DNA of 64,000 nt from Zygnema cylindricum (lineage: Eukaryota > Streptophyta > Zygnematophyceae > Zygnematales > Zygnemataceae), in contig JBBHKE010001395.1 of NCBI GenBank assembly GCA_037447655.1, positions 620,001-684,000 on the forward strand. Direction: 5' to 3'. Under the pieces are notes generated by a model. It did no database searches. It was not told where the DNA came from and was given only the letters and a program-made list of their open reading frames with translations. A program made the position numbers and the translations under genes. The stretch's first letter is position 1. Each line of letters begins with the position of its first letter. Shown in pieces: positions 1 through 52,616 of this stretch.

Positions 1-389
1 TCTCTGTGGAATATATTGGCTTCCGTGGGGTTATCTTTCTCTTGTGTGTGTTTTATCGTTTATGTTTCCGCTTGCATTTGCACTCAGTTTTATTTTATTG
101 TAAAGATCATATCACGAAATGCAACTGTCCAATGCAGTGCCGGACTGGAAAAAGATGGAATTGTGGATTGAACGGTTGTATAGGCCGGAATTTCCTAAGA
201 CATATGATCGGGGTTGATAAAATCGTAGATATAGATTTCCTTAACCGAAGGTATAAGAGAAGGGAAAAGAAAAAACTGAAATGGATTTCCCTTGAGATTA
301 GTAGAGGTGCGAGAGGAAACATGACGTGAAGGTGCAGCCGTATCCCCCCCCCCCCTGCTAGTTGCACGGGGTGATTCTGTGGGTAGGGA

Positions 390-1643
390 TCAGTTGTAAA
401 GCCGAGACCTAAGACAAATGATAAAGATTGTGGATCCATGACCCTACCCAACAAGGTGCAGCGCTGTCTATTTGTAAGGTCGGGGGCCGTAGTAGTGCTT
501 GGAATAAAATGCATAAGATGCTCCCGTTCTGTGGCAGTATGCTCCTTTAACTCCCCAGTGATATTATTTCAAAGCATGTCTGAACCGTTATGAGAGTATG
601 CATGTGAATTAGGATAAGACACTAAAGTAAGAAGGACCTTGAGTGGCTGACCGGGTACATTAATATTGTAATTCGGAGGGTAGTTGGTTTGGACACATGA
701 CTGGACTTGGTGAAAGGGAAGCAAAGCGGTCTAAATGTCAGTAGTGGGAGGTCTTACTAACAAATTAGCCTCACGAAGACGACCAACATCGATTAGGTTG
801 GTACATTTAGAACGAACCCCATGTGCAAGGGACCCATGCCGAGCGGCATCAATAAACAACGAGGGTCTAATTAGGTGTTCTATACGCTTATAGTCAGCCA
901 AAACTGTAGGTCGTGGATCTTTATAAGAGGCGACGTTCTCTAAAATGTATCCGACTAGTCTGGCCATGTTTTGAAGAAAATGTAAGACCCTCAAAAGCTC
1001 AAAAAAAAAAATTGGTACGAAGATCCGCCAAACCAAGATCTTTGCATGCCCGAGACATGCCTTGACACTCCCACCCCCCAAAAACAAGGTCTATCGGTTC
1101 GACGTCTTGTAGATGATGGTTACTAAGGATGCATATATCTTGTGGAAGAGCTGTGTGCATGTATAAAAAGGCTGACTTGGGAAACAACTGTGGATATTGT
1201 GAATGCATGAGATTACAATGGTGCAACTATGCCTTTCTAGCTACCGCATCTATTTCTACCGCATAGTAGTGACGGATGAGGAGATTATTCCGTAAACATG
1301 ACAATAGTGAAGTTCCAATCCCAACGAATAGGTCTAGAATAACGACCCTGTCTGTATGAGGACTTAGTTGTACAGGCTTCCAATTAATAGGAAGGAACCT
1401 CGAAGGATCGGCTGCAACGGAAGGTATAGGAGTGATACGTGTTAATGGTATAGATAATGTGGACTTATAAATATTGTCCATTGTGTGAGAATTGATAAGA
1501 AAACCGCGCTCCGCAAAGAGATCGGGTAAGGGAGAAATATCCGTTATGATTTCTTTGGACGAAAGGGAGTGGAAAATGTCCTCCCCAACGGAGTTCCCCA
1601 AAAATGCAAAGAGAGCCGTAGCCGAATGAGCCATAGTGGGCAA
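390..1643 (-). pseudogene. Retroelement-encoded C5-cytosine DNA methyltransferase (decayed)
   Basis: Reading the minus strand, the canonical cytosine-5 methyltransferase motifs occur in linear order. Motif I is DLFVGIG near 1,335-1,312, followed by an acidic YYAVEID turn. Motif IV is near 1,078-1,050 with ECQ in place of the usual PCQ; the catalytic Cys is kept. Motif VI (ENV) is near 940-932, a motif VIII-like HGVRSKCTNL follows, then a variable target-recognition stretch, and motifs IX/X (EREHLM, later a VMD block) lie near 530-430. The order I to X is not the permuted DRM arrangement. Breaks: TAG at 1,227-1,229, a slip in the A-run near 1,000-1,010, TAG at 731-733 and TGA near 570. It lies downstream of gag and protease on the same strand, so it belongs to a retroelement rather than to a host gene. 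Such enzymes are known from retrotransposons of a charophyte alga and dinoflagellates. Confidence 0.8.
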
Positions 1644-1942
1644 AGGTCGGCGGGTTCAAATGACAGGGAGGCAGATTTTGGGCTCTGGAAAGTGTGTCGG
1701 TCGGTAAGAGAATGATTGGTCGTGCATGTCCACGCCATCGCCAATTTAGAATATAACGTTTTGACCAACCAAACACTCATAGTCGTTACATTTAGTGACC
1801 AATGCTCTGACGGAAATTCAACGGACTCATTTTTGGTTCCTGTTTGAAACCGAAAGATGAGCGGGTCCTTTCTGATTCCGAGGACCGGCTCCGTGGTCCC
1901 GACCGAAGTAAGAAGGCGGGTAGCTGTCGTCTGAAGCTTCTC

Positions 1943-2641
1943 TCATGTCAGACCAAGCTTGAGCGCAAATCCGGATACGAGGATCACGGGTTTGGCCCCG
2001 GTGTCCATGAGAGGAAGAGTGGGGTGAACACCGTTCACTGAGAATGATCCCCGAGAGTTATCAAGGAAACCGATATGGGGATCGAGATTACGACGCTCTT
2101 TCGTAGTAACCGACTGGACCACTGAAAAACTGCGGTTAAGTTGCAGAGCCCTCAAAGCGGCTGCAGGTGCAACCTCATCAACGAGGGGAAGGGCTTTCGG
2201 TACATCCTCCAACATCGCTGAAAGAATACTTAATCGCTCCTTCACCCGATGAGCCTCATGAATAGTGTTATCCAATAAATTTAGTGCCTCTGCCGCGATG
2301 GGAGGGGCGGTTTCCGGTAGGTAAGGCAGAGGCTCCTTTGCAAATAAGAGTGGGACACGAATGGTCAGTGCCTCTGCCGCGATGGTAGAAGCCGTTTCCG
2401 GTAGGGGAGGCAGAGGCTCTTTTGCAAATGAGAGTGGGACACGCGAATTTGGTAATTTGCCCACTCGGTTATGGTCTCTTGAGCCCTTTTCAAATGTAGC
2501 AACCCGTTGTTGGACGGTGGAATCCCAAAGGGTTTGCCAGGCCAACGACGGCATGTGGACAACGGTCCTAGCCATCCTAGTAAATTGGGGTTTCATTTCC
2601 GCCATCAAAGCTGCAAATTGCTCTTTCATCATGGTCGCCAT
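1943..2641 (-). pseudogene. Gag tail and retropepsin-like aspartic protease start
   Basis: An open stretch of about 230 residues. The N-terminal half is charged and repetitive: a block containing FAKEPLP..LPETA..IAAEAL occurs twice, a tandem duplication. The C-terminal end carries MDTGAKPVIL, the D-T-G-A active-site signature of retroviral-type aspartic proteases, followed by a GFALKLGLT stretch as in Ty3-type proteases. The frame closes right after this, so the rest of the protease is degraded. It sits between gag with zinc knuckles (upstream on the minus strand) and the methyltransferase (downstream), giving the order gag-PR-DNMT. Confidence 0.65.
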
Positions 2642-2769
2642 TGTGGCTTGAAGCTCGGCTTTCTCTATCTCTCTACGAAAGATCTTAGGAGGAGTTTTCT
2701 CCTTCTCGATCTCCTTAGGCGGAGTGACTGGTTTCGCGGAACGGGCAGGAATTCCGCCGCTCTTTATCT

Positions 2770-3551
2770 GATTTTGATAAGTGAAATAAGGGTCTTTGAT
2801 GTGGCACCGATAGACATAATGTCCCTTTTAATGGCAATGACTGCAAGTGGCCGCCTTGTCAAGACACATGCGGGCATCGTGCCCGGTTTTTCCGCATCGG
2901 AAACACATTCAATTTTTCGGGACTAACAGGTCGAGTTCCCATGGCTCGCGTCTTCTGGGCCTATTGGGAGGCAATGGGTTTTTAGGTGGAGGAGGAGATA
3001 GATTAGCCGGCTCCCGTGAGGAGATTTGGACCGCTCATGAGCGTCCCACCAAGATGTCTGCATCTCATACTCTATCGCATATTGAGCCGCTTGCTCAAAG
3101 GTGAATTTCAGTCCATACATCTGGCTGAGGTGGTTTTGGATAAACCTCTTTGATGGACCATGAAACTGTCCCACATATTTCTGGAGAGCCTCCGCATCGG
3201 ACTTGATGTCCGGTAATGCCTCTCGCAGAGTTTCCATCCGAGCTCGTAAGGTAGGAGCAGTTCACCTAGCCTACGCTCTAAGTTCATCAACTCTTTGATA
3301 TGATCTGGATTTTGCACCCGGTACTCCTCTTGGAGGATGTCAAACATGACTGAGAGAGGGTCACGTAAAGGAATGGTTCCCCCCGCTCTACCTGGGACAG
3401 TCGCTCGGGCAGCCACTGTATACTGACGAGGAACCTCGGGGATAGCTGGATACAACTCGTCCCCGTTAGCATCTATTATCGCCAGTCTCGCAGCCTGATA
3501 TGGGATATCCACCTGGCCGAAAACTTCTGGTAACCCCACAAAGGGAGCCAC
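2770..3551 (-). pseudogene. Gag with CCHC zinc knuckles of the methyltransferase element
   Basis: Two overlapping minus-strand frames (3,551-3,108 and 3,237-2,923) form one gag-like protein split by a frameshift near 3,240. The second frame, with YVGQFHGPSKRF and FEQAAQYAIEYEM, looks like a capsid C-terminal region. Near 2,910-2,870 the minus strand encodes CFRCGKTGHDARMC, a perfect C-x2-C-x4-H-x4-C nucleocapsid knuckle, and a second knuckle follows that is interrupted by an in-frame TAA. The protein is broken, so the copy is dead. I assign it to a Ty3-like element from domain order; no reverse transcriptase is visible before the window edge. Confidence 0.6.
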
Positions 3552-3653
3552 GTACTATGTTATTGCAAGGACATCTTTTTACTTGCGAGTGTAGAGAGTG
3601 AGGGTCGAACCACGGAGGTATCGATCGAGAAGGGAGAAGGCTGCAATCTTGTG

Positions 3654-4638
3654 TCCTCCATTGGACCACAAAATTCAGGAAGCCTCTAGATAGTTATTAA
3701 CTAACCCACTTTCAAAGGCAACCACTGCTACCCAAGCAGAAAATCAAACAATCTGACTGCACCCCTATGCAACGTGGACTTTTTTGAGTCTGTAGGAAAA
3801 AGAATCTCTGAAAACGCCCAACCAGGAGATAAGTTATGAGGCAGTAAAAATGCCACTTTGTACAAACTCTCAAAGAGAGAGGTGACTACCTACCAAAAAT
3901 TACTAAGTCCTGATTCCCTCTAATAACTCCTATCTAATAAAGTAGGGACCAATCGGAATACTGTTCCATACCAAAAAGTACTACTGCCATTGTACCTTTT
4001 GTACGGCATATGTACGACAAGGCTATTAAGCGGACACGTGTCCAGTTTTCAATCTTCTGTACGTTCCTCAGAATTCCCGCGACCGAATGTTATCTCTCCA
4101 CGTGGCGCCAGGTCATGCCACGTCACTAAATGCCAAAGTGACCATTGCGGCATCTCGGCGATGACGTGCGCCGTCAGATAGAATTTCGTATTTGATCTCA
4201 ACCGTTGAAACAAATGTCTGATTCATTTGTTTTGTGCGTAATCATATTCGTACGGTATTTAATCCGCTCCATATACTTATGTTTGTATTTCCGTTAATCA
4301 GAATAAATACCATAACACTATTTAACTATTTATCAAACCGTATATACTCTAGCGAACTTCTACGACAGACCGGTGAGAGCTAACGGCTACGCCATGCTCT
4401 GCCGGTCGGGGGTTCGAGTTGTGTCGGACTCAAACTTTTGTTGAGAGTGACTTAGGTCACTCTTTAGTCCTGCACAAGTGGAGCTGAGGCAGCCATGGCT
4501 CCACTACTCTATCTCTCTCTCTCTCCTTTAGTGACTACAACAAGAATGGGGGATAGAGAGAGAGAGGTGGAGACAGACTGCTTGCGCTCTCATCACTTTT
4601 TATCAAATTTTAGACCTAGAAAATACTTATTTTCAACA
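3654..4638 (-). repeat. Diverged LTR, relative of the 27.5/30.7-kb LTRs
   Basis: The right end (GACCTAGAAAATACTTATTTTCAACA on the plus strand) matches the outer end of the LTRs that finish at 28,704 and 31,921. Internal blocks also align: the Ser/Cys-codon-poor 'aaaaagaatc.ctgaaaa' block, a GTACTTTTTGTACGGC block and a CACGTGTC block. The inner end keeps the CCTCCATTGG block that contains the minus-strand gag ATG. It lies just upstream (minus sense) of the gag-PR-DNMT remnant and could be its 5' LTR, or a solo LTR inserted next to it. The inner boundary is approximate. Confidence 0.65.
4345..4440 (+). other. tRNA-like sequence inside LTR (antisense to the element)
   Basis: The plus strand has an A-box-like GAGCTAACGGCTA, a B-box-like GGGTTCGAGTT, short CGACA/TGTCG ends that can pair, and a TTTT run shortly downstream. 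The same block, aligned, recurs in the LTRs at about 28,385 and 31,625. It is not a recognisable functional tRNA: no standard cloverleaf with an anticodon could be drawn. Confidence 0.35.
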
Positions 4639-5107
4639 AAGGCGACACAGAGGTCAAACCTATCTTGATATCTAAAAGCTAGATCCCTCATTTCCGTGTC
4701 GTATAACATCCGGAAATGCGATAAAGACATAGTGTCTTTTAATCCGGAAAAGTACAATTGCATCTTACCCATGGATCCCTCTGAAGAGGAAGCCAGGTCG
4801 TAAAAGGGAGGATGCGCCAGTTGTGCCAAAGCTGGGCTGGCAAGGAACCTACGAGTGTGAGGAGTTGGAAATGTTTCCTTTGGAAAGTCTTTTTCGGTCC
4901 CCTCTAGGTATGACCAAGATGAAACGAGGACAATGATGACGCAGATGTCAGACTAGACCGCATTGACGGTGATCCACGATCCCCAACCGGATCGGATGTG
5001 GTCAACGATTCAGGAAAATTTGACGGATCTAATTGGGGAGGACGATAAAATGTACCACGTCGGGTGGACCCGAATTGATAAGGAAGGTTATCCCAATCCG
5101 TGGGCAT
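4593..5107 (-). pseudogene. Uncharacterised coding-like remnant running into the LTR
   Basis: The minus strand is open from 5,107 to about 4,904 and again from 4,829 to 4,593 in a shifted frame. The protein-like stretches are compositionally normal (Pro/Ser-rich first part, then a mixed helical-looking part with SGLKDTMSLSHFRMLYDTEM). The last fifteen or so residues are encoded by the LTR end. No family is recognised. It may be the 3' part of an older gag-like gene into which the LTR inserted. Confidence 0.3.
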
Positions 5108-7429
5108 AAACCAAAGGGAAAACCGTGACTACAATAGTGAAATGTTTCGAACGAACTAACCGAGATGCAACACGTGTCAAACCAATCCACACACGAACAA
5201 TAAGCTCAAACAGTCACTATCAAGACCTGGTGGTCAGATCTAGCAAAAAGTCGGAATACCAAAAACTCTACCGTGCAAACAAGGAGCAAGACCGAAAGGC
5301 CAAATCTATAAACAAGCAGGCAGCTATCCAAGCACCTTTGGGTGCAGATCTAAAGCAACACAGAGAGAAAAACGCCTATGTAATGCCACCAACGGCCAGA
5401 TCTAGAAAGCAATTCCACACCAGATATTCACAAGAAAAATTCAAGGTCACTTAGGGCTAGATAGCATGCAAGGAAAACAGGAAAAATGCTAATGCTCGAT
5501 CAGAAAGGTTCCAATCAAAACCGATCCACACCGGTCTCCTAAACGTGTGTTTAAACTATAATGGAACGCTCTTGCACCCGCAAGGCATCGGCTACTTACA
5601 AACAATTTTAATACTCTGGTGAGTACTAAAAGTGAACCAGACTAGTTCGAACCCATTTGGATTTTGCAGAGCCCTCGAATGTGATCCGCTTCGAAATCCG
5701 CTCTGAAATCCGCTCCGAGCACCGTCTTCAAAAGTGACCCTCCGCTGGACTCTTGGTAACGTGAAGATGTACACCGTGGAATGTTAGAGGACCAGATGAA
5801 AGGGAAAAAAATGTGTCGATAGAAGAAAAAGAACAAATAAGAAACATAAATACGATAGATAGTAAGAGTGCGTTAGAATAAAGTCAGAGGTTGTTGAAAC
5901 TCCAGATATACAGCCAAACTTGTGACCACAATAATCTAAAGCTAGCAGCAAACCCTAATTCCACTCGAAAAACACTAATTCCAACACCAAACCCTAATTT
6001 CAAACGGCCCGAAACTCCAAATATGCAGCCAAGGAATAGAAGGATACTGACCTAAGGACTAGAATAAAAAGGAATAAGCCCTAAATCTGCTGCAACCCTA
6101 ATTTTGCAGCCCAAACCCTAATTTTGCAGCCGAACCCTAATTTTGCAGATTAACCCTAATTCTGCAGATTAACCTTAAATTTGCTGCAATTATTAGGTTT
6201 AACACTAAAGCCAAGAAATATAGTGGCAGCAGAATAAGAGACAAAGATTGAAAGAAAAAAATAGCAGAAAACAAAAACAAAATGTTTTTTTTTTTTTTTA
6301 TAAAATAAAAATTTATATTTTTAATATATTTTTTTCTTTTGGACAAGAATGTTAAGCCAAGAGATAGCCACTAGGCTATCTGGTCTTTATCACAATCCCT
6401 ACAAGAGTTATCTCGTTATGACAACAAAGCAAGAAATATTCCAACCTAAACAAGGGAAAATCCAAATCCGATCAAAAATACACTCCTTCCAAGCCAACCA
6501 AAATACAAACAAGACACACACACAACAAAACCGTCAGGCTGTACGAGGAACGCACAGCAAGGTCTAGATGTGCTCCCCCACGATCTCCAATTCCACACTT
6601 CCACCAAAAGACCGAGTTTGGAGGGAAACCTTCCGGACGTGGCCTTAGGCCGTGTGAATGAAAAACGTGGGCAAAAATACAAGGGCAAATATTCGTAGCC
6701 TATCTAACCTCTATAGCTAGCTAGCAATAATAAATAGAAAGCATGAGCAATCAGTGAGAGAGAGAGCAAGAGAAAGCTCCGCCGCCAAGAGAAAATTCTT
6801 GTTCAAAAGCTAAATTCTTTAAGTCTGAGAATTAGCCTAAATAGGAGCTACTCTAGGCCTAAGCGAAACTAGCCTACGTCTAGCCTACTTTACATGCATG
6901 AAACTAATTAATATGTTGGCCAATAGGCAGCCAACATCGTCTGCCATACGTCTAACAAAATCCACCGTCCAAGGGTAAAAACCCTCCCTAACTACATGTA
7001 CGCGCGAACCTCGATGGGTTCGCGACTTAAATATATATAATGTATCGAAGCGTCGCCCGAAAATCGCGATTCGTCTCCAAACGATATTCCGCGTCCATAC
7101 TTCGAAATCGCGTGCATACGCACGAAACGAAGCATACCGCACGAAATACTCGAAATCGAAATACCTGCGTACGAAATGAAAAGTATCGCACGAAATAAGT
7201 ACTTTTCAACAAAACGTGCACGCGAATCGCGTACAAGTCACAAATAAGTGAATCGACAATATTGTACTAATGCAACTACGAAACTCAAACGTGCGACTAA
7301 AATCCATATGTGCGTGCGGAAATCGTGCGTGCATGTATAATATGAGACAACATTACTTCACATAGCTCACAACATTTCACAACACACATTATTAAGATAC
7401 ACATTATCAATATTACTGTTAAAATTATA
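5108..7429. other. No gene recognised; AT-rich spacer with short repeats
   Basis: Small open frames here (for example 5,125-5,454) have no recognisable motif. The stretch holds a telomere-like array (see the entry at 5,985) and, at about 7,040-7,210, an irregular cluster of CGCACGAAA / CGAAATAC words. I see no splice-consistent coding exons. Confidence 0.5.
5985..6180 (+). repeat. Degenerate ~17-bp tandem array with CCCTAA core
   Basis: Units of the form AACCCTAATTTTGCAGCC repeat several times between about 6,095 and 6,180, with looser copies upstream from 5,945. The AACCCTAA core resembles plant telomere sequence, but the units are too long and varied for a telomere. Confidence 0.6.
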
Positions 7430-7534
7430 ATGGATCCTGTCATTATCACACACACATTATTACATTCATTATTTATTATCATTACATCATTAACACCATT
7501 ACATTACACACACATTACCACACACACCCACATC

Positions 7535-7712
7535 ATTATGACGACATTATTATGCCACCACCACCACCATCATCATCGTCATCATCATCATCATCATCGT
7601 CATCATCGTCGTCAACATCATAATCATTATCGTCATCATCATCATCTTCATCATTACATCATCATTATCATCATCATTACATCATCACCACCATCATCAT
7701 CATCAGCCCATC
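7535..7712 (+). repeat. (CAT/ATC)n trinucleotide tract
   Basis: About 170 bp of CAT/CAC/CGT triplets. It gives a poly-His open frame (7,430-7,870) on the plus strand, which is best read as a microsatellite artefact. Confidence 0.85.
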
Positions 7713-34426: not shown

Positions 34427-36889
34427 CTACAACCCCAATCCCAACCCCAACTCAATTAAACATCTACGAAAAACAACCCCGTAAGTCCCCCAATCCCGGA
34501 GGAGCACGTTGAGGGATTTTTGGATCATGGCGACGATCCATAACTGCAACAGACGATCGGAGGAGAATAGAAGCCTGCACCAGTTGTAAAACCACAGAAA
34601 AGCGTTGACGATAAAAATAAGTAAGGACCGAAGGAGGAGGGCTCCCCAGTCCTCGGCGCTCGAAAGCACGTCAAGCACAAGTACAAAGAAAGTCGTCCAG
34701 TGCAACACTAAAAGAACCAAAGATCTCAACCGCCATCTGAATAAAGTCATCCATAGTGTCCTGGTAGGCATAATCACGCTCCTTCGCCATAGCACCATAA
34801 CGAGCTGCCACCCCAACATATCGAGCCGCTTGACCAACAACTGTAGCTGAAGTAGGGTTCGCCAGAACAATATCACCGAAGATGCGACGAGCACCATCAA
34901 GCAAAACAACATCGATTCGACCCGAATGAATAATATGGGAAACCACTCGACGCACAGAAAAACCCCCTTTCGAAGCGATTGTCGCAACAGTGTCGCGAAT
35001 AGTGTCGTGCGCCTGGATCAAATCTCCCCCATGGGAGCAACGAAGCAAATGGACACCATCGAGCCCCAAGACACAACCACATGCACAAACAAAAGAGCCA
35101 AGTAAAGGAGGATGGGGGAGGCCAAGGCGCTATTGGAGGGCGGTGGTGAATTGGGTAGGTGAAAATCGGAGAGTGGACAAAATGGGTGTAGCGAAAAGCC
35201 AAGAACCAAAACCAGGTCCACCACAAGAGAGAAGACGGACACGCGAAGAATCGGAGGGAAGCGCATTGAGAAGGTGAGATTTAATGGCGGCGACAACCCG
35301 ATTAGAAATTGATTCTTGGTCACGCTCAACAGATTTTGTAACAAGGGTGGAGAAAATTGGCACATCCACTAGAGCATGGGGAGGAAGAGAACATGACGCG
35401 TCCAATAGAGTTCCCTGAAAACGAACACACCGCTAGAAACCCGAGGAATAACAGTAGCTAGAACGGGGTTGGGCCCAACCAAGAAACGGAAAACAAAAAT
35501 ATAGGCAATAAGACACCAACTTCCCAAATAGGCAGCGGGAGCAACGTGAGTGGTCGATAATAAACCCAACTCCTAAGTAGAGACAGGAAGGGATGCCTGA
35601 ATGCGTGTCGATGCCCAAGACTCGCGATCAAATGCCCCACAACCTAACATAGTGTGGAGGACGTCCATGAGGCGATCGTCAAATGCCGAGAGAGAGGAGA
35701 CAAATGTCGAGGTGGGAGGCGAAGTACGTGTAAAGTAAGAAAGGCGGTGGGGAAAATACCTGGTTATCACATCAAACGCAACTTGGGGATCGGGAAGGTG
35801 AGGAAGGTTATCCACTTAGGCTAGATCTGTGTGTAAAGCATCCTGAAGGAATTGGGTCACAAAAGTATCCGAAGTAAGGGGGCAACTAAGAACACGGATG
35901 CCTTTGGAGGGAGAAGGGGTTTGAAAACCAAGAGGGGGAGTGAACCAAAGTGGAATATCTTGAGGAGACCAAATAACACACTTCGACGGCTGGAATGAAA
36001 GGTTGAGTTCAGATAAACGTTCCTTGAAAAAACCATATGCCAACACGACTTGTTCTTTGGGCTTAATAATGTGCGTATCATTTGCGACCGAAGGGAAATG
36101 GCAAGAAAGGAAGGCGACTGCGAAGGCACGAAGGGCTCGGTAATGGGCGAGGGAGAACAAAGGTCCGCAGAGAGGGTCACCTTGGCGAGTGCCTGTAGCA
36201 GAGGAGAGTAATGAGTTCACCATCAGCCGAAAAGGAAAGGGTGATTGTCAAAGAATAGAAAGCCCTCACAAAGGGGAATAATTGGACAATCGGAGATGGA
36301 GCCGCCATAAGCTCTGAAAAAATCACCTTCCGATCCACCGTATTATAGGCATTGGAAACGTCGACCTGAAAGACCAACCAAACTGGATGTACATCCAACA
36401 AAGCCCGAATCTCGTGGACCACGACCTCACAACCCCCTCTCGTGGCCACTCCAAACTGATGAGGAGAGAAATAATCATGGAAAGCCGGTTGGAGCTGGAG
36501 ACATATCGCACGAGCCACCAATCTATATAAAACCTCTCCCACCACAATAGGGCGTATCCCACCATTAGGTTTGGCGATTGCCACTAGGCGGGACGCCGTG
36601 AGAAGATCACAAATCCGAGGAGGAACATCGTCACTAGCAATATGGGAACATAATCGGAAAAAAACATCGAACCCCCGGGCTCGCGAAACAACTCATACAC
36701 TGTGCTCGAGGGGCCCCCCGCTGAAAGGTGAGGAGACGAGCTAAGAGTCTTAATGAAAACCTCTCGATCCAAAGTAAAACTCTCAAAAGGCTCAAAGGCG
36801 TGGATAGAAGGGGGTAAAGGGGAAAGGGCAGGGGACACTTTTAGTAAGTGTAACCAACATTCTTTAGTGCTATAGCCTTTAAGGAGCAA
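34427..36889 (-). pseudogene. Non-LTR reverse transcriptase with CCHC and nuclease-like C-terminus (decayed)
   Basis: Minus-strand frames in order: an N-terminal RT block with IAKPNGGIRPIVVGEVLYRL; motif A (FQVDVSNAYNTV); a frameshift near 36,220; motif B (GTRQGDPLCGPLF); and a motif C altered to VANDTHII (normally x-A-D-D). Further on are thumb-like segments and, near 35,075-35,030, a C-x-C-x7-H-x3-C finger (CGCVLGLDGVHLLRC). At 34,960-34,680 comes RIDVVLLDGARRI..GDIVLANP with a later AKERDY and AVEIFG, which has the spacing of a PD-(D/E)XK nuclease. RT, then CCHC, then such a nuclease is the R2-group plan. Several frameshifts show it is dead. Confidence 0.75.
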
Positions 36890-48350: not shown

Positions 48351-51300
48351 GGTTATGGGCCTGTTCACACCAATTCAAACACCGTTGCAAAATTCAACGG
48401 CACGGACTTTTACGGATGGAAGTTTCAGATTGAGCATCTTTTGCGGCGGGAGAAACTGTGGTCCGTTATCAGCGGAAGTGAGAAAGAACCTTCGGATGTT
48501 GCCGCCAAACCTGTTTGGATACTTCGCAATGAGGAGGCACTTTCACGATTGGTTCTGGCTCTTGAGCCTTCCCAACTTGGACTCATCCGTGACGCTAGCT
48601 CCGCTCACGAAGCTTGGACACTTCTGACAAATGCCTACGAAAACAAATCTTGGTCAAACAAACTTCTCCTTCGTCGTCAACTAATATCTTCTCAGAAACT
48701 TCCCTCCGAGAGTATGTAAGACTACATCCAAAATATCAAATCTTTGGCTGGACGTCTGAAAAGCATCAGCTCCACCGTCACTGATGAAGATATTATTACG
48801 GCGATCTTAGGAGGCCTGCCGTCCTCTTACGCCGCCTTTATTTCATCTATCGATAATTCTGCTGTCACTATAACCATTCCATCTCTCACCACCGGTCAAT
48901 TACATGAGGAGACCAAACAGAATCTGCCACCGCCACCTGGTGTCGCTTTGGCAGCCTATCATCCGTCCGCTCGACCGCCCAGGATCTCCTCCTGTCGCTA
49001 TTGCCGGGAACCTGACCACGTCATCGATAATTGTCTTGCACTTAAACGTAAGCAGGACCGACAAGGACACCCTGGTCGTACGGCTGGACGTGGACGCCAT
49101 CCTGGTCGTGGCCTTTATCAAGGTCAAGCCTCTACGGCTGAAGCCATTTCACCGGCCATCCCTGATTATCATGCACCAACAAATCCTTTCAATTATTCTC
49201 CTTCGCGTGGATTCGTTAATGCTCCACTTGGCGATAATAATCACACGACGCCTGTCGCCCAACCGTACACCTATTTTTCATACGGTTACACTCCACCTGT
49301 CGTCGGCCAATTATCGACTGCCCCTTATACTTCACCGCCGCGAGAATACGGGTTTGCCCTCGTTACATCCGCAGCACCAGATTCCTTTAAGCCACACGAT
49401 TCTTGGATCGTGGACTCTGGAGCGTCGCATCATTTATCATCACGTTACAATTGGTTTCGAACTGTATCGCCGCTTCAGTATCCAGTGACAATTTTACTTG
49501 GAAATAACGCAGCCTTATCGGCCACGCACATTGGCCAAATCTCAACTATGGGCAGTCCAGCCAACACATCACAAATCATTCTATCTGACGTCTTATTCGT
49601 TCATGGACTGAAAAAAAATCTTTTTTCGGTTGGCGCAGCTCTTAATCAAGGCGCCACTGCTGTCTTTTCCACCTCCACTGTCACCTTTCTTTCATCCACT
49701 AATACGCAAGTAGGCCTTGGCATTAAGTCAGGATCTATCTACATCCTATCGCATTTCAAATCCGTTGGATCTGCCAACTCTGCTATATCCTTGTCCCCTG
49801 ACTCATTCTCACGGTGGCATCTAAGATACGGCCACCTTTCCGCCTCCGGTCTCCAAACCCTAAGTAAGGGTCTTGTCAACGGCCTAGATTCATTTCCGGC
49901 CAAAAATCTCCCATTTTGTTCCGGATGCGTCCAAGGCAAATTACCTCGTCCGGCTTTTCCATCTTCGACTTCCAAATCTGACATTCCTCTTACATTGGTC
50001 CACTCAGATCTTTGTGGTCCCATGTCTGTACCGAACCACACCGGCGCACTATATTTTGTAACGTTCATTGATGACGCCACGCGCTATTGTCATCTTTTCC
50101 TTCTCCAACGAAAATCAGACACGTTCACATAATTTCAAGAATACAAATCGCTCGTCGAAAACTCCCTCAACTGTCGCATAAAATGCCTGCGAACCGATAA
50201 TGGGGGAGAGTACTTCTCTACCGCATTTTCTCAATTCCTTACTATTCACGGCATCATCCACCAATCAACGGTGGCACATATGCCGCAGCAAAACGGAGTT
50301 TCCGAAAGATACAATCGTACGGTTATAAACATGGCAAGATCCATGTTACACTTCGCTGATCTGCCGAAAATTTTCTGGGCAGAATCTGTCACGACTGCAA
50401 ATTACCTACGCAATCTTTCTCCAACCTCTGCAATTATTAGACGAACCCCTTATGAAGCTTGGACGGGAATTAAACCCGACGTTTCTCATCTTCGAATATT
50501 CGGATGTACCGCGTGGGTGAAAAATCTCACTCCGGCCGGCAAATGGGATAGCCGTGCCAAATCGGGCGTCCTAATCGGGTTTGCTACCGAATCAAAGGCA
50601 TACCAGATTTGGCTCTCCAACGAACATCGAGCTGTCCTCAGCCGTGACGTCAGCTTCAACGAAACTCCTCTTCTCCTGAAACTTTTACACTCATCTTCCC
50701 CTCCTCTTACTTCTCCTCCTTCGCCTCCCCTTCTTCCGTCTGCTCCCAAAAACCCTTCCTCATCAACCCTATCAGTTATTTTCCCCGAAATTTCTCCAAA
50801 TCCACACAACCTTTCTCCCCTTCTTCTATCCCCCTCAACTCTTACACGAACATCATCAGAGGCACGTCTCCAAACCGAGTATTCTCCTCTAAAACTTTCT
50901 CGAACAGTTTCAGATCCCTACTCTATCTCCCCAGTCAATCCTTATGACCCCCCATACGTCATTCCACCGGCGAATGCTGTTCCTACTCCTCCACCTATCA
51001 GAAAAAGTCAAAGACTCCATGCTCTGCAGCTCCGTGAAACCAATGGCATGGCAAACATTGCCACGGTTGATGTTCCTCCTTCCTTTTCAGCCGCCATGAA
51101 AGGACCAAATGCTGCCTCCTGGAAAATAGCCACTGACGCCGAATTTGCTTCCTTGCAAAAAAATGGCACGTGGGAACTCACCTCCCTTCCTCCCGGTCGA
51201 AAGGTCATCGGATCCAAATGGGTCTTCCGGATCAAAACCAAGGCGGATGGATCCCTTGATCGCTACAAAGCCCGTTTCGTCGCGAAGGGCTTTTTACAAA

Positions 51301-52616
51301 AAGAAGTAGATTTCCATGAGACATACGCTCCTGTCGCCAAATTTACCTCCATTCGCATCCTCCTCTCTCTTGCTGCTGCCCGTGACTGGCACATCCATCA
51401 CATGGATGTCCAAACGGCTTTCCTTTACGGTACACTCAACGAAGAAATCTTCATTCGACAGCCCGAAGGATATGTCGCGCCCGGAACCGAGAACCTCGTC
51501 TGCCGCCTTCTCAGATCTCTCTACGGCTTGAAGCAAGCGCCTCGTGTTTGGAACAAACACTTGGAGGCGATTCTTCTCAAGCAAGGGTTCCACAAGCTTG
51601 ATGCGGACTTTGGCCTTTTTCTGCGAGGTACTGCTGAGTATCTTGTCATCTTAGTGATTTATGTTGATGATCTGCTCTTAGCCAGTCCCTCCCTTCCACT
51701 CATTCATCTTGTTAAAACCATGCTTAACATTCACTTCTCCATGACTGATTTAGGAGAGGTTGAATACTGCCTGGGTATTTTTGTCGGGAGAGACCGACCT
51801 TCAAAAACATTATACCTCTCTCAAGAAAAATATATCACTGAGGTCCTCAGCAGATTTTCCATGACAGATTGCAGTCCAGTGTCTACTCCTCTGGACCCAA
51901 ATGTAAAACTTATTAAAAACTCCGGTGGGCCTGTCCCCGGAGCAACCCATGAGCTGTATCGTTCTATAGTCGGTAGCCTTATGTATGCCATAACAGGAAC
52001 ACGTCCGGACATTGCAGTAGCAGTAGGACAGCTCAGCCAATTTGTCTCTAACCCCTCCTCAGACCACCTCCTTGCTGCCAAACGAGTTCTGCGTTACCTT
52101 CAAGGGACAAAAACCCTCAAACTCACCTTCACTGGTTCCTTTTCCCCTGAGTTGACTGGTTTCTGCGATGCGGACTGGGGGGGAGACTTGGATTCCCGAC
52201 GATCAACCACTGGTGTGTGTTTTTCCCTTCATGGCGCTCTCATCTCCTGGGCTTCAAAGAAGCAACCCACAGTTGCCCTTTCTTCAACCGAATCAGAATA
52301 TATGGCTGCTACCCATGCCACAAAGGAAGCCATCTGGCTTCGCTTTCTCCTCGCAAATCTTCAGTCCCCTCAGCCTTGCGCCACTGTCATCTTCAGCGAC
52401 TCCCAAGGTGCACTTGCCCTCATGGGAAACCCAGTGCATCATCGAAGGACGAAGCACATAGATATTCAGTTCCACTTCACCCGTGATGCCATTGCTGCTG
52501 GCACTGTGAAGTTCTCCTACTGTCCCACTTCCAAACAGCTGGCTGACTTCCTCACTAAGGCCCTTGCACGTCCTCAGTTCGAACTTCATCTTTCATCTTC
52601 CGGCCTTCGATTCTAA
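48333..52616 (+). pseudogene. Copia polyprotein Gag-PR-IN-RT-RNaseH with two in-frame stops
   Basis: A single frame of 1,427 codons before the stop, interrupted only by TAA at 48,717-48,719 and 50,130-50,132. Order: UBN2 gag; CCHC knuckle CRYCREPDHVIDNC (about 48,993-49,034); aspartic protease VDSGASHH (about 49,410); integrase with an HH-CC head and the catalytic D (HSDLCGP), D (TDNGGEY) and E (NGVSERYN); reverse transcriptase with YVDD at 51,659-51,670; RNase H with CDADWGG, SSTESEY and SDSQGA. The domain order is that of Ty1/copia. No frameshift is seen, so the copy is young. The start ATG is within the LTR. Confidence 0.93.
48351..48361 (+). promoter_or_regulatory. Primer-binding site, half-tRNA type
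   Basis: GGTTATGGGCC immediately follows the LTR, the same 11 bases as in the gag-only element at 30,719-30,729. It is complementary to the anticodon region of initiator tRNA-Met. It is translated as part of gag. Confidence 0.85.

Follow-up and report, generated by a model that had tools for sequence, protein, structure and literature searches.

Intact relatives of a probable decayed Ty3/gypsy-type element in Zygnema cylindricum combine a DNMT3-like methyltransferase, a PHD finger and split repeats

A 64,000-nucleotide stretch of the Zygnema cylindricum genome (assembly GCA_037447655.1, contig JBBHKE010001395.1, positions 620,001 to 684,000; hereafter the window) carries near its left edge the broken remains of a retrotransposon that brings along a cytosine methyltransferase. 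Six-frame reading of the minus strand, on which all parts of this copy lie, revealed within window 110-3554 gag zinc knuckles, a protease with a DTGA active site and a C5-methyltransferase of the DNMT3 type, in that order. The start of gag, in two overlapping frame pieces (4593..5128), resembles by eye the start of P0001, an intact relative encoded elsewhere in the genome, and its part 4739-4663 matched the intact relative by blastn (75%, E 2e-8); about 1 kb of other sequence separates it from the remaining gag. The latter consists of a capsid-like part in two frames (2923..3554), recognized by blastn to the intact relative (window 3332-2360, 68%, E 3e-87), and, by six-frame reading, two CCHC zinc knuckles with an in-frame stop within the second (2804..2905; CFRCGKTGHDARMC...CSHCHxKGHYVYRC, x being the stop, at about 2905-2804). 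The aspartic protease piece, from the same reading (1943..2050), holds the active site MDTGA at about 2008-1994. The methyltransferase follows in five pieces, in which we take the conserved blocks to be motifs I, IV, VI, VIII and IX/X: 1230..1655 with motif I LDLFVGIGTS (about 1337-1308; E 9.4e-24); 1002..1226 with motif IV GGWECQGMS (1079-1053; E 3.1e-34); 734..1090, in another frame, with motif VI YILENV (949-932, its ENV at 940-932) and motif VIII IDAARHGSLAHGVRSK (about 853-806), the first Arg of which is Gly in this copy (E 5.6e-37); 572..730, past motif VIII (E 1.2e-21); and the C-terminal piece 110..568 with LLGRVMDPQSLSFVLG (E 4.9e-23), the motif IX/X part spanning 730-110.

These E values come from a profile of the intact genome relatives, searched against all 786 frame segments of at least 40 amino acids in the window; exactly these five matched, in the right order and at E 1.2e-21 to 5.6e-37, and no further segment did. 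Judged by these alignments, the likeness is far beyond chance. The domain check proposed in the initial annotation thus came out in two ways: the family profile recognized the methyltransferase at E values down to 5.6e-37, and Pfam DNA_methylase alone gave the motif IV piece (1002..1226) E=0.024, below its cut-off. Of the seven window pieces given to Pfam this was the only one with a hit of that sort; the other six, the gag pieces included, matched neither gag nor protease nor methylase models. Because its methyltransferase is interrupted by three in-frame stops and a single change of frame, and its gag is split, the window copy is a dead, decayed element. The initial annotation had also noted the absence of a polymerase, which proved to be an effect of the window edge: extension to the left found reverse transcriptase (RT; YIDDL), RNase H and the beginning of the integrase aligning at -147 to -2136, where the copy is interrupted. 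Over three long blocks the window copy shares 66-68% DNA likeness with C1344, the genomic copy that encodes P0001. Some 3.8-4.6 kb left of the window, a copy on the opposite strand (L009:5420-6217, plus) has a frame joining protease to PHD end and, read from that junction, is an internal deletion derivative that has lost methyltransferase, RT and integrase.

Across the 353 Mb of the same assembly, at least 123 places matched the methyltransferase family PF00145, host genes included, and 12 of these lay in stop-free frames of at least 850 amino acids. The C1344 copy, of the window's own family, encodes P0001 as a single frame of 2395 residues in the order gag, protease, DNMT, RT, RNase H, integrase and PHD finger. 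Its Pfam domains are DNA_methylase, RVT_1, RNase H, integrase H2C2, rve and a C-terminal PHD finger (38.1 bits, cut-off 24); the first zinc knuckle (PF00098, 16.6 bits, cut-off 20.8) and the protease (Asp_protease_2, 16.7 bits, cut-off 24.3) scored below their cut-offs, and no Pfam gag match was found in P0001. A second, sister family is represented by P0002, with DNMT, RT, RNase H and integrase, again with rve and H2C2 domains, and a weaker PHD match (17.5 bits, below cut-off). The domain search of P0001 and P0002 gave no chromodomain match after the integrase. The order RT, RNase H, DDE integrase is thus present in the relatives and, by alignment left of the edge, in the window copy. The nearest solved structures of the integrase were those of prototype foamy virus (PFV) and Ty3, and those of the PHD finger, among the best 60 of 90 matches, were PHF12, KDM5 demethylases, WSTF, BAZ2B, PHF21A, KAT6 and others; several PHD fingers of these types read the unmodified N-terminus of histone H3.

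The recurrence of the order gag, protease, DNMT, RT in open frames genome-wide bears on a reading in which a methyltransferase gene of the host, or a sequence similar by chance, just happens to neighbour gag-like sequence. The genome does hold another C5-methyltransferase piece, exon-like and of ordinary type with GGPPCQG (L007:1498-1797), which looks like a host gene among the PF00145 places and presumably resembles plant chromomethylase. The open-frame relatives, here and in other organisms, and the family-profile matches refute this reading, and we give it next to no credence. The window feature is instead very likely a decayed copy of a Ty3/gypsy-type family whose intact members run gag, protease, DNMT3-like methyltransferase, RT, RNase H, DDE integrase and PHD finger, and the call of a retroelement equipped with a cytosine methyltransferase, first made from the window, is borne out by copies in which one open frame spans this domain together with gag, protease, RT and integrase.

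In the second family, a stop codon in the context TAG CAA TTC CC stands between the protease and DNMT-Pol frames in all seven places where the joint was found (L012:4814-4816, L018:4951-4953, L024:5210-5212 and four more), one of them with a DNMT only 58% alike. From its sequence this looks like a possible programmed amber readthrough site; the readthrough context of tobacco mosaic virus is UAG CAR YYA.

The closest solved structures to the methyltransferase were DNMT3A (E 1e-10) and DNMT3B (8e-9), followed by bacterial HhaI (0.002), and in eight aligned domains the catalytic Cys, the Glu-Asn of motif VI and the RxR of motif VIII were invariant. Motif IV was read in 52 of the 123 PF00145 places, chosen among the better matches, and in the window copy, with duplicates counted once. 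In the window's family the residue before the catalytic Cys was Glu in 30/30 places, with full GWECQ in 25 (some of the rest with stops) and the Cys retained in all 30; in the sister family it was Pro in 23/23. Database relatives showed both types (Glu 49, Pro 22, Asp 1 and unreadable 4 among 76), as did 15 further fragments (Glu 12, Pro 1, unread 2), and 26 more distant stand-alone enzymes had Pro in 23 and were unread in 3. The ECQ loop, initially singled out as a mark of this copy, is thus a property of its family and of many relatives. On an 80-row tree the Glu label required 7 changes (6-8 across the bootstrap range); because at least 4 of these are forced by well-supported branches, the Pro/Glu switch is, on this tree, a recurrent one. 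The tree omitted P0079-P0093, P0042, P0052, P0056 and P0074-P0078, 19 stand-alone rows that were too short once cut (7 of the 26 kept), and five of the eight rows of set A2, two of the five being represented by P0001 and P0002.

Named relatives came from Klebsormidium nitens, Closterium, Marchantia polymorpha and Haematococcus lacustris. The K. nitens methyltransferase (P0071, the partial protein KFL_009030040, taken as representative of the element KnitGypsy-Dnmt3) nests within the tree of the window's family, supporting the kinship to a charophyte case that had been suspected from the window. Two layouts occur among the 56 proteins with both DNMT and RT, P0001 and P0002 included: DNMT before RT in 13, and after RT/RNase H but before integrase in 43. 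Placement before RT, directly after the protease, is therefore no peculiarity of the window copy, as had been supposed. All rows whose DNMT follows RT, or directly precedes integrase (RT unseen), fall in one clade (100/99), which holds no row with DNMT before RT. A PHD match follows the integrase in 51 of the 61 proteins with an integrase. A viral source sought through IMG/VR was rejected: 51 stretches matched a search pattern, and the one relative among them (L080, 31% alike over residues 41-177) is an ordinary GWPCQG enzyme amid genes that look phage-like by eye.

Median ratios of nonsynonymous to synonymous substitution (dN/dS) in the DNMT were 0.158 (95 pairs) and 0.194 (93 pairs) in the Glu family, with values above 0.5 in 4 and 4 pairs, and 0.224 (86 pairs) in the Pro family, with 10 above 0.5; stop codons and gapped columns were excluded, only pairs with dS of 0.05-1.5 were used, and pairs share copies and are not independent. 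By this measure the methyltransferase is under purifying selection. In a smaller set the medians were 0.055 for RT (11 pairs), 0.278 for integrase (4), 0.167 for DNMT (2) and, at saturated dS, 0.063 for the PHD finger (5).

Such constraint has to be set against the possibility that the DNMT is a relic riding along passively, acquired a single time from a host Dnmt3, with methylation since lost and Glu in place of Pro marking inactivity. Several observations weigh in that direction or against the main reading. Glu is unusual, since Pro stands in motif IV of all readable distant stand-alone enzymes; RT is more constrained than DNMT in the same small set; and in yeast the DNMT domain of K. nitens left the DNA unmethylated, a result its authors call inconclusive (PMC5890265). 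The observed/expected CpG ratio, at 0.83-1.07 in Glu-family copies, 0.66 in a Pro-family copy (in which GpC was also low, 0.78) and 0.92 in the window, leaves no clear footprint of CG methylation. Differences between the paired repeats of each copy (A1 and A2, described below) were too few in CG context to show methylation, except in C449, where 39 of 80 transitions lay in CG context versus 0.36 of C/G positions, a way of counting that inflates CG. The relic reading is nonetheless unlikely: dN/dS medians of 0.16-0.22 hold in both families, the catalytic residues named above are invariant, Glu is fixed in its family beside a Cys kept in all 30 places, and the Glu and Pro types both endure across a wide tree.

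The ends of the intact relatives are arranged in an unusual way. C1344 consists of repeat A1 (931 bases), the frame, a G-run, repeat B1 (242), the dinucleotide GC, A2 (100% identical to A1) and B2 (99.6% to B1). Split repeats of this form, A-coding-B-GC-A-B, occurred in 6 of the 9 right ends examined, in two families and in an element with a DDE integrase: the same order was seen in C829, C1915, C449 and C1374, and in C1407 for the right side alone, without a left end. None of the copies examined carries A+B at both ends, so that a whole long terminal repeat (LTR) is not shared by the two; the 5' end is A alone and the 3' end B-GC-A-B. The inner joint forms the palindrome GACA-GC-TGTC in 6/6 split-repeat copies, and in 313 kb of examined sequence this string occurred at these six joints and nowhere else. 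Outer ends read TGTC...GACA without GC, except in C449, where GC directly follows the last GACA. In each of the three youngest copies the complete unit from A to B2 is bordered on both sides by an exact 4-bp target duplication (C1344 TTGG, C829 AAGG, C1915 CCCT). A1-A2 identity was 100% in C1344, 99.6% in C829, 99.5% in C1915, 97.8% in C1374 and 89% over 824 bases, lower elsewhere, in C449; identities of up to 100% indicate that some insertions are recent. In C1374 (L033, L012, L034, L037), the frame is followed by B, 3.7 kb, a further B with a frame-end piece, and GC-A2-B2; from this order it is a composite or nested insertion.

A possible primer site lies just past A1, as a stretch whose reverse complement lies about 470-580 bases upstream within A. 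Self-complementary stretches of 15-24 nucleotides were found in 8 of 12 scanned copies (C1344, C829, C1915, C449, C1374, C2577, C544 and C1112) and comprise five different sequences, C1374 and C544 counted as one; 1500 control 50-mers from three copies reached 12 nucleotides at most. Because pairing is kept while the sequence changes, the comparison argues for reverse transcription that may be self-primed as in Tf1. A ends where the primer site starts, and B begins at or beside the G-run that follows the frame (C1344, C829).

From these features we propose a joint scheme of replication and integration, which we hold to be somewhat better than an even bet. The RNA would fold back and prime its own reverse transcription, as in Tf1; if this self-primer were used and plus-strand synthesis began at the G-run, reverse transcription of the ordinary kind would give DNA with B-GC-A at both ends. 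Such outer ends would lack the TG/CA of an integrase substrate, which the inner joint has in the form of the palindrome. End-to-end closure would then yield a circle with an A|B joint, and the integrase would open one palindrome (the joint GACAGCTGTC being its presumed target) by cuts after each CA, dropping GC and leaving A-coding-B-GC-A-B, the form observed. Foamy virus and HIV-1 (human immunodeficiency virus 1) integrases are reported to cut LTR-LTR palindromes (PMC1180852, PMC1905944), and foamy virus 2-LTR circles have been proposed as an integration substrate, contrary to the prevailing view (PMC1180852).

Alternatively, an ordinary LTR element (LTR = A+B) that underwent recombination or nested insertion might have produced the arrangement, with no circle involved. 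A+B joined does start with TGTC and end with GACA, as an ordinary LTR would, C1374 has 3.7 kb between two B copies, and in C783, C2577 and C544 only one B is present and a target duplication is absent, GC and then other sequence following the B of C2577. Such an origin is nevertheless quite improbable, since the arrangement recurs in six copies of two families with matching joints at the primer-site start and at or near the G-run, the inner joint has GC whereas the outer ends of young copies lack it, target duplications flank the entire unit, and a matching layout has been described for K. nitens (PMC5890265). The self-primed, circle-based scheme has its own counterweights beyond the single-B copies. 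Among the five two-ended split-repeat copies, the target duplication is imperfect in C449 (3/4 bases) and absent in C1374; the primer site of C783 is weak (14 nucleotides); those of C2577, C544 and C1112 come from an open scan unanchored on the A end, whereas the control covers the anchored search; and no site was found in C2678, in C1042:421k (a stretch perhaps too short) or in the window copy, in which repeats were not found either. Neither a circle, a transcript nor enzyme activity was seen.

As to the role of the added domains, the position of the DNMT in Pol would bring it to the complementary DNA (cDNA), as has been proposed for SymbioDIRS, a methyltransferase-bearing dinoflagellate retroelement whose domains methylated CG in yeast (PMC5890265). 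At rather less than even chances, the enzyme may travel together with RT and integrase and methylate freshly made cDNA or the site of insertion, and recruitment of the integrase or the methyltransferase to chromatin may fall to the PHD finger. More tentative still is the thought that the clade merges self-primed reverse transcription, an obligatory circle opened by a DDE integrase at a palindrome, and a DNMT3-PHD module that writes and reads epigenetic marks of the host, in which the Pro/Glu toggle might mean a changed substrate such as an RNA-DNA hybrid or single-stranded cDNA.

Elsewhere the window holds a Ty1/copia-type element with gag, protease, integrase, RT and RNase H in two long frames (48720-52616, plus strand, by eye), a frame piece like that of a non-LTR reverse transcriptase (36177-36692, minus strand, by eye) and a long simple repeat coding for poly-His and poly-Ser in overlapping frames (7423-7623, plus strand).

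Elements that carry a DNMT reverse the usual picture of hosts methylating transposons. Young copies, a recurrent Pro/Glu switch and the GACA-GC-TGTC joint would offer handles on two questions: does the methyltransferase of a retroelement act on the cDNA of that element, and can circular DNA be the regular substrate for integration in an element with a DDE integrase?

PAT-like DIRS elements have split direct repeats in the order A-coding-B-A-B, the order found here; DIRS elements use a tyrosine recombinase, whereas the present elements have a DDE integrase and 4-bp target duplications. The dinoflagellate elements SymbioDIRS-Dnmt3 and SymbioLINE-Dnmt are likewise retroelements with cytosine methyltransferases, SymbioDIRS having both split repeats and Dnmt3, but they use a tyrosine recombinase and an endonuclease, respectively (PMC5890265), in place of the PFV/Ty3-type integrase seen here. 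Plant chromoviruses and non-chromovirus Ty3/gypsy elements share the Ty3/gypsy RT, RNase H and integrase, and chromoviruses also have a chromatin-reading domain after the integrase, self-priming being predicted for most Tcn1 elements (PMC6317226); unlike them, the elements here have a PHD finger in place of the chromodomain, a DNMT in Pol and split repeats. The main text of that Ty3/gypsy survey contains neither "methyltransferase" nor "PHD" and reports no non-chromoviruses in algae (PMC6317226), and a 2025 survey describes some DNMT3 in retrotransposons of streptophytes and dinoflagellates, called LTR Copia and DIRS (PMC12344493). The titles and abstract openings of the open-licence papers that literature searches listed mentioned no PHD finger, Pro/Glu switch, palindromic joint or amber readthrough for such elements. 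The closest known system is KnitGypsy-Dnmt3 of K. nitens, described with a Dnmt3-type DNMT in a gypsy-type Pol frame before RT, an rve integrase, repeats in DIRS arrangement and a DNMT dN/dS below 0.2 (PMC5890265). The intact relatives share its Dnmt3-type domain in gypsy-type Pol, the A-coding-B-A-B order and purifying selection, the window copy holding a broken DNMT. Unlike the window's family, KnitGypsy-Dnmt3 has GWPCQG as motif IV (P0071), the main text of its description does not mention a PHD finger, and its sections 6, 9, 10 and 11 describe no primer site, palindrome or target duplication (PMC5890265). A DNMT-bearing gypsy-type element with DIRS-like repeats is thus already known from that description (PMC5890265); the C-terminal PHD finger, the GACA-GC-TGTC joint, the 4-bp target duplications and the self-complementary primer site are what was found here.

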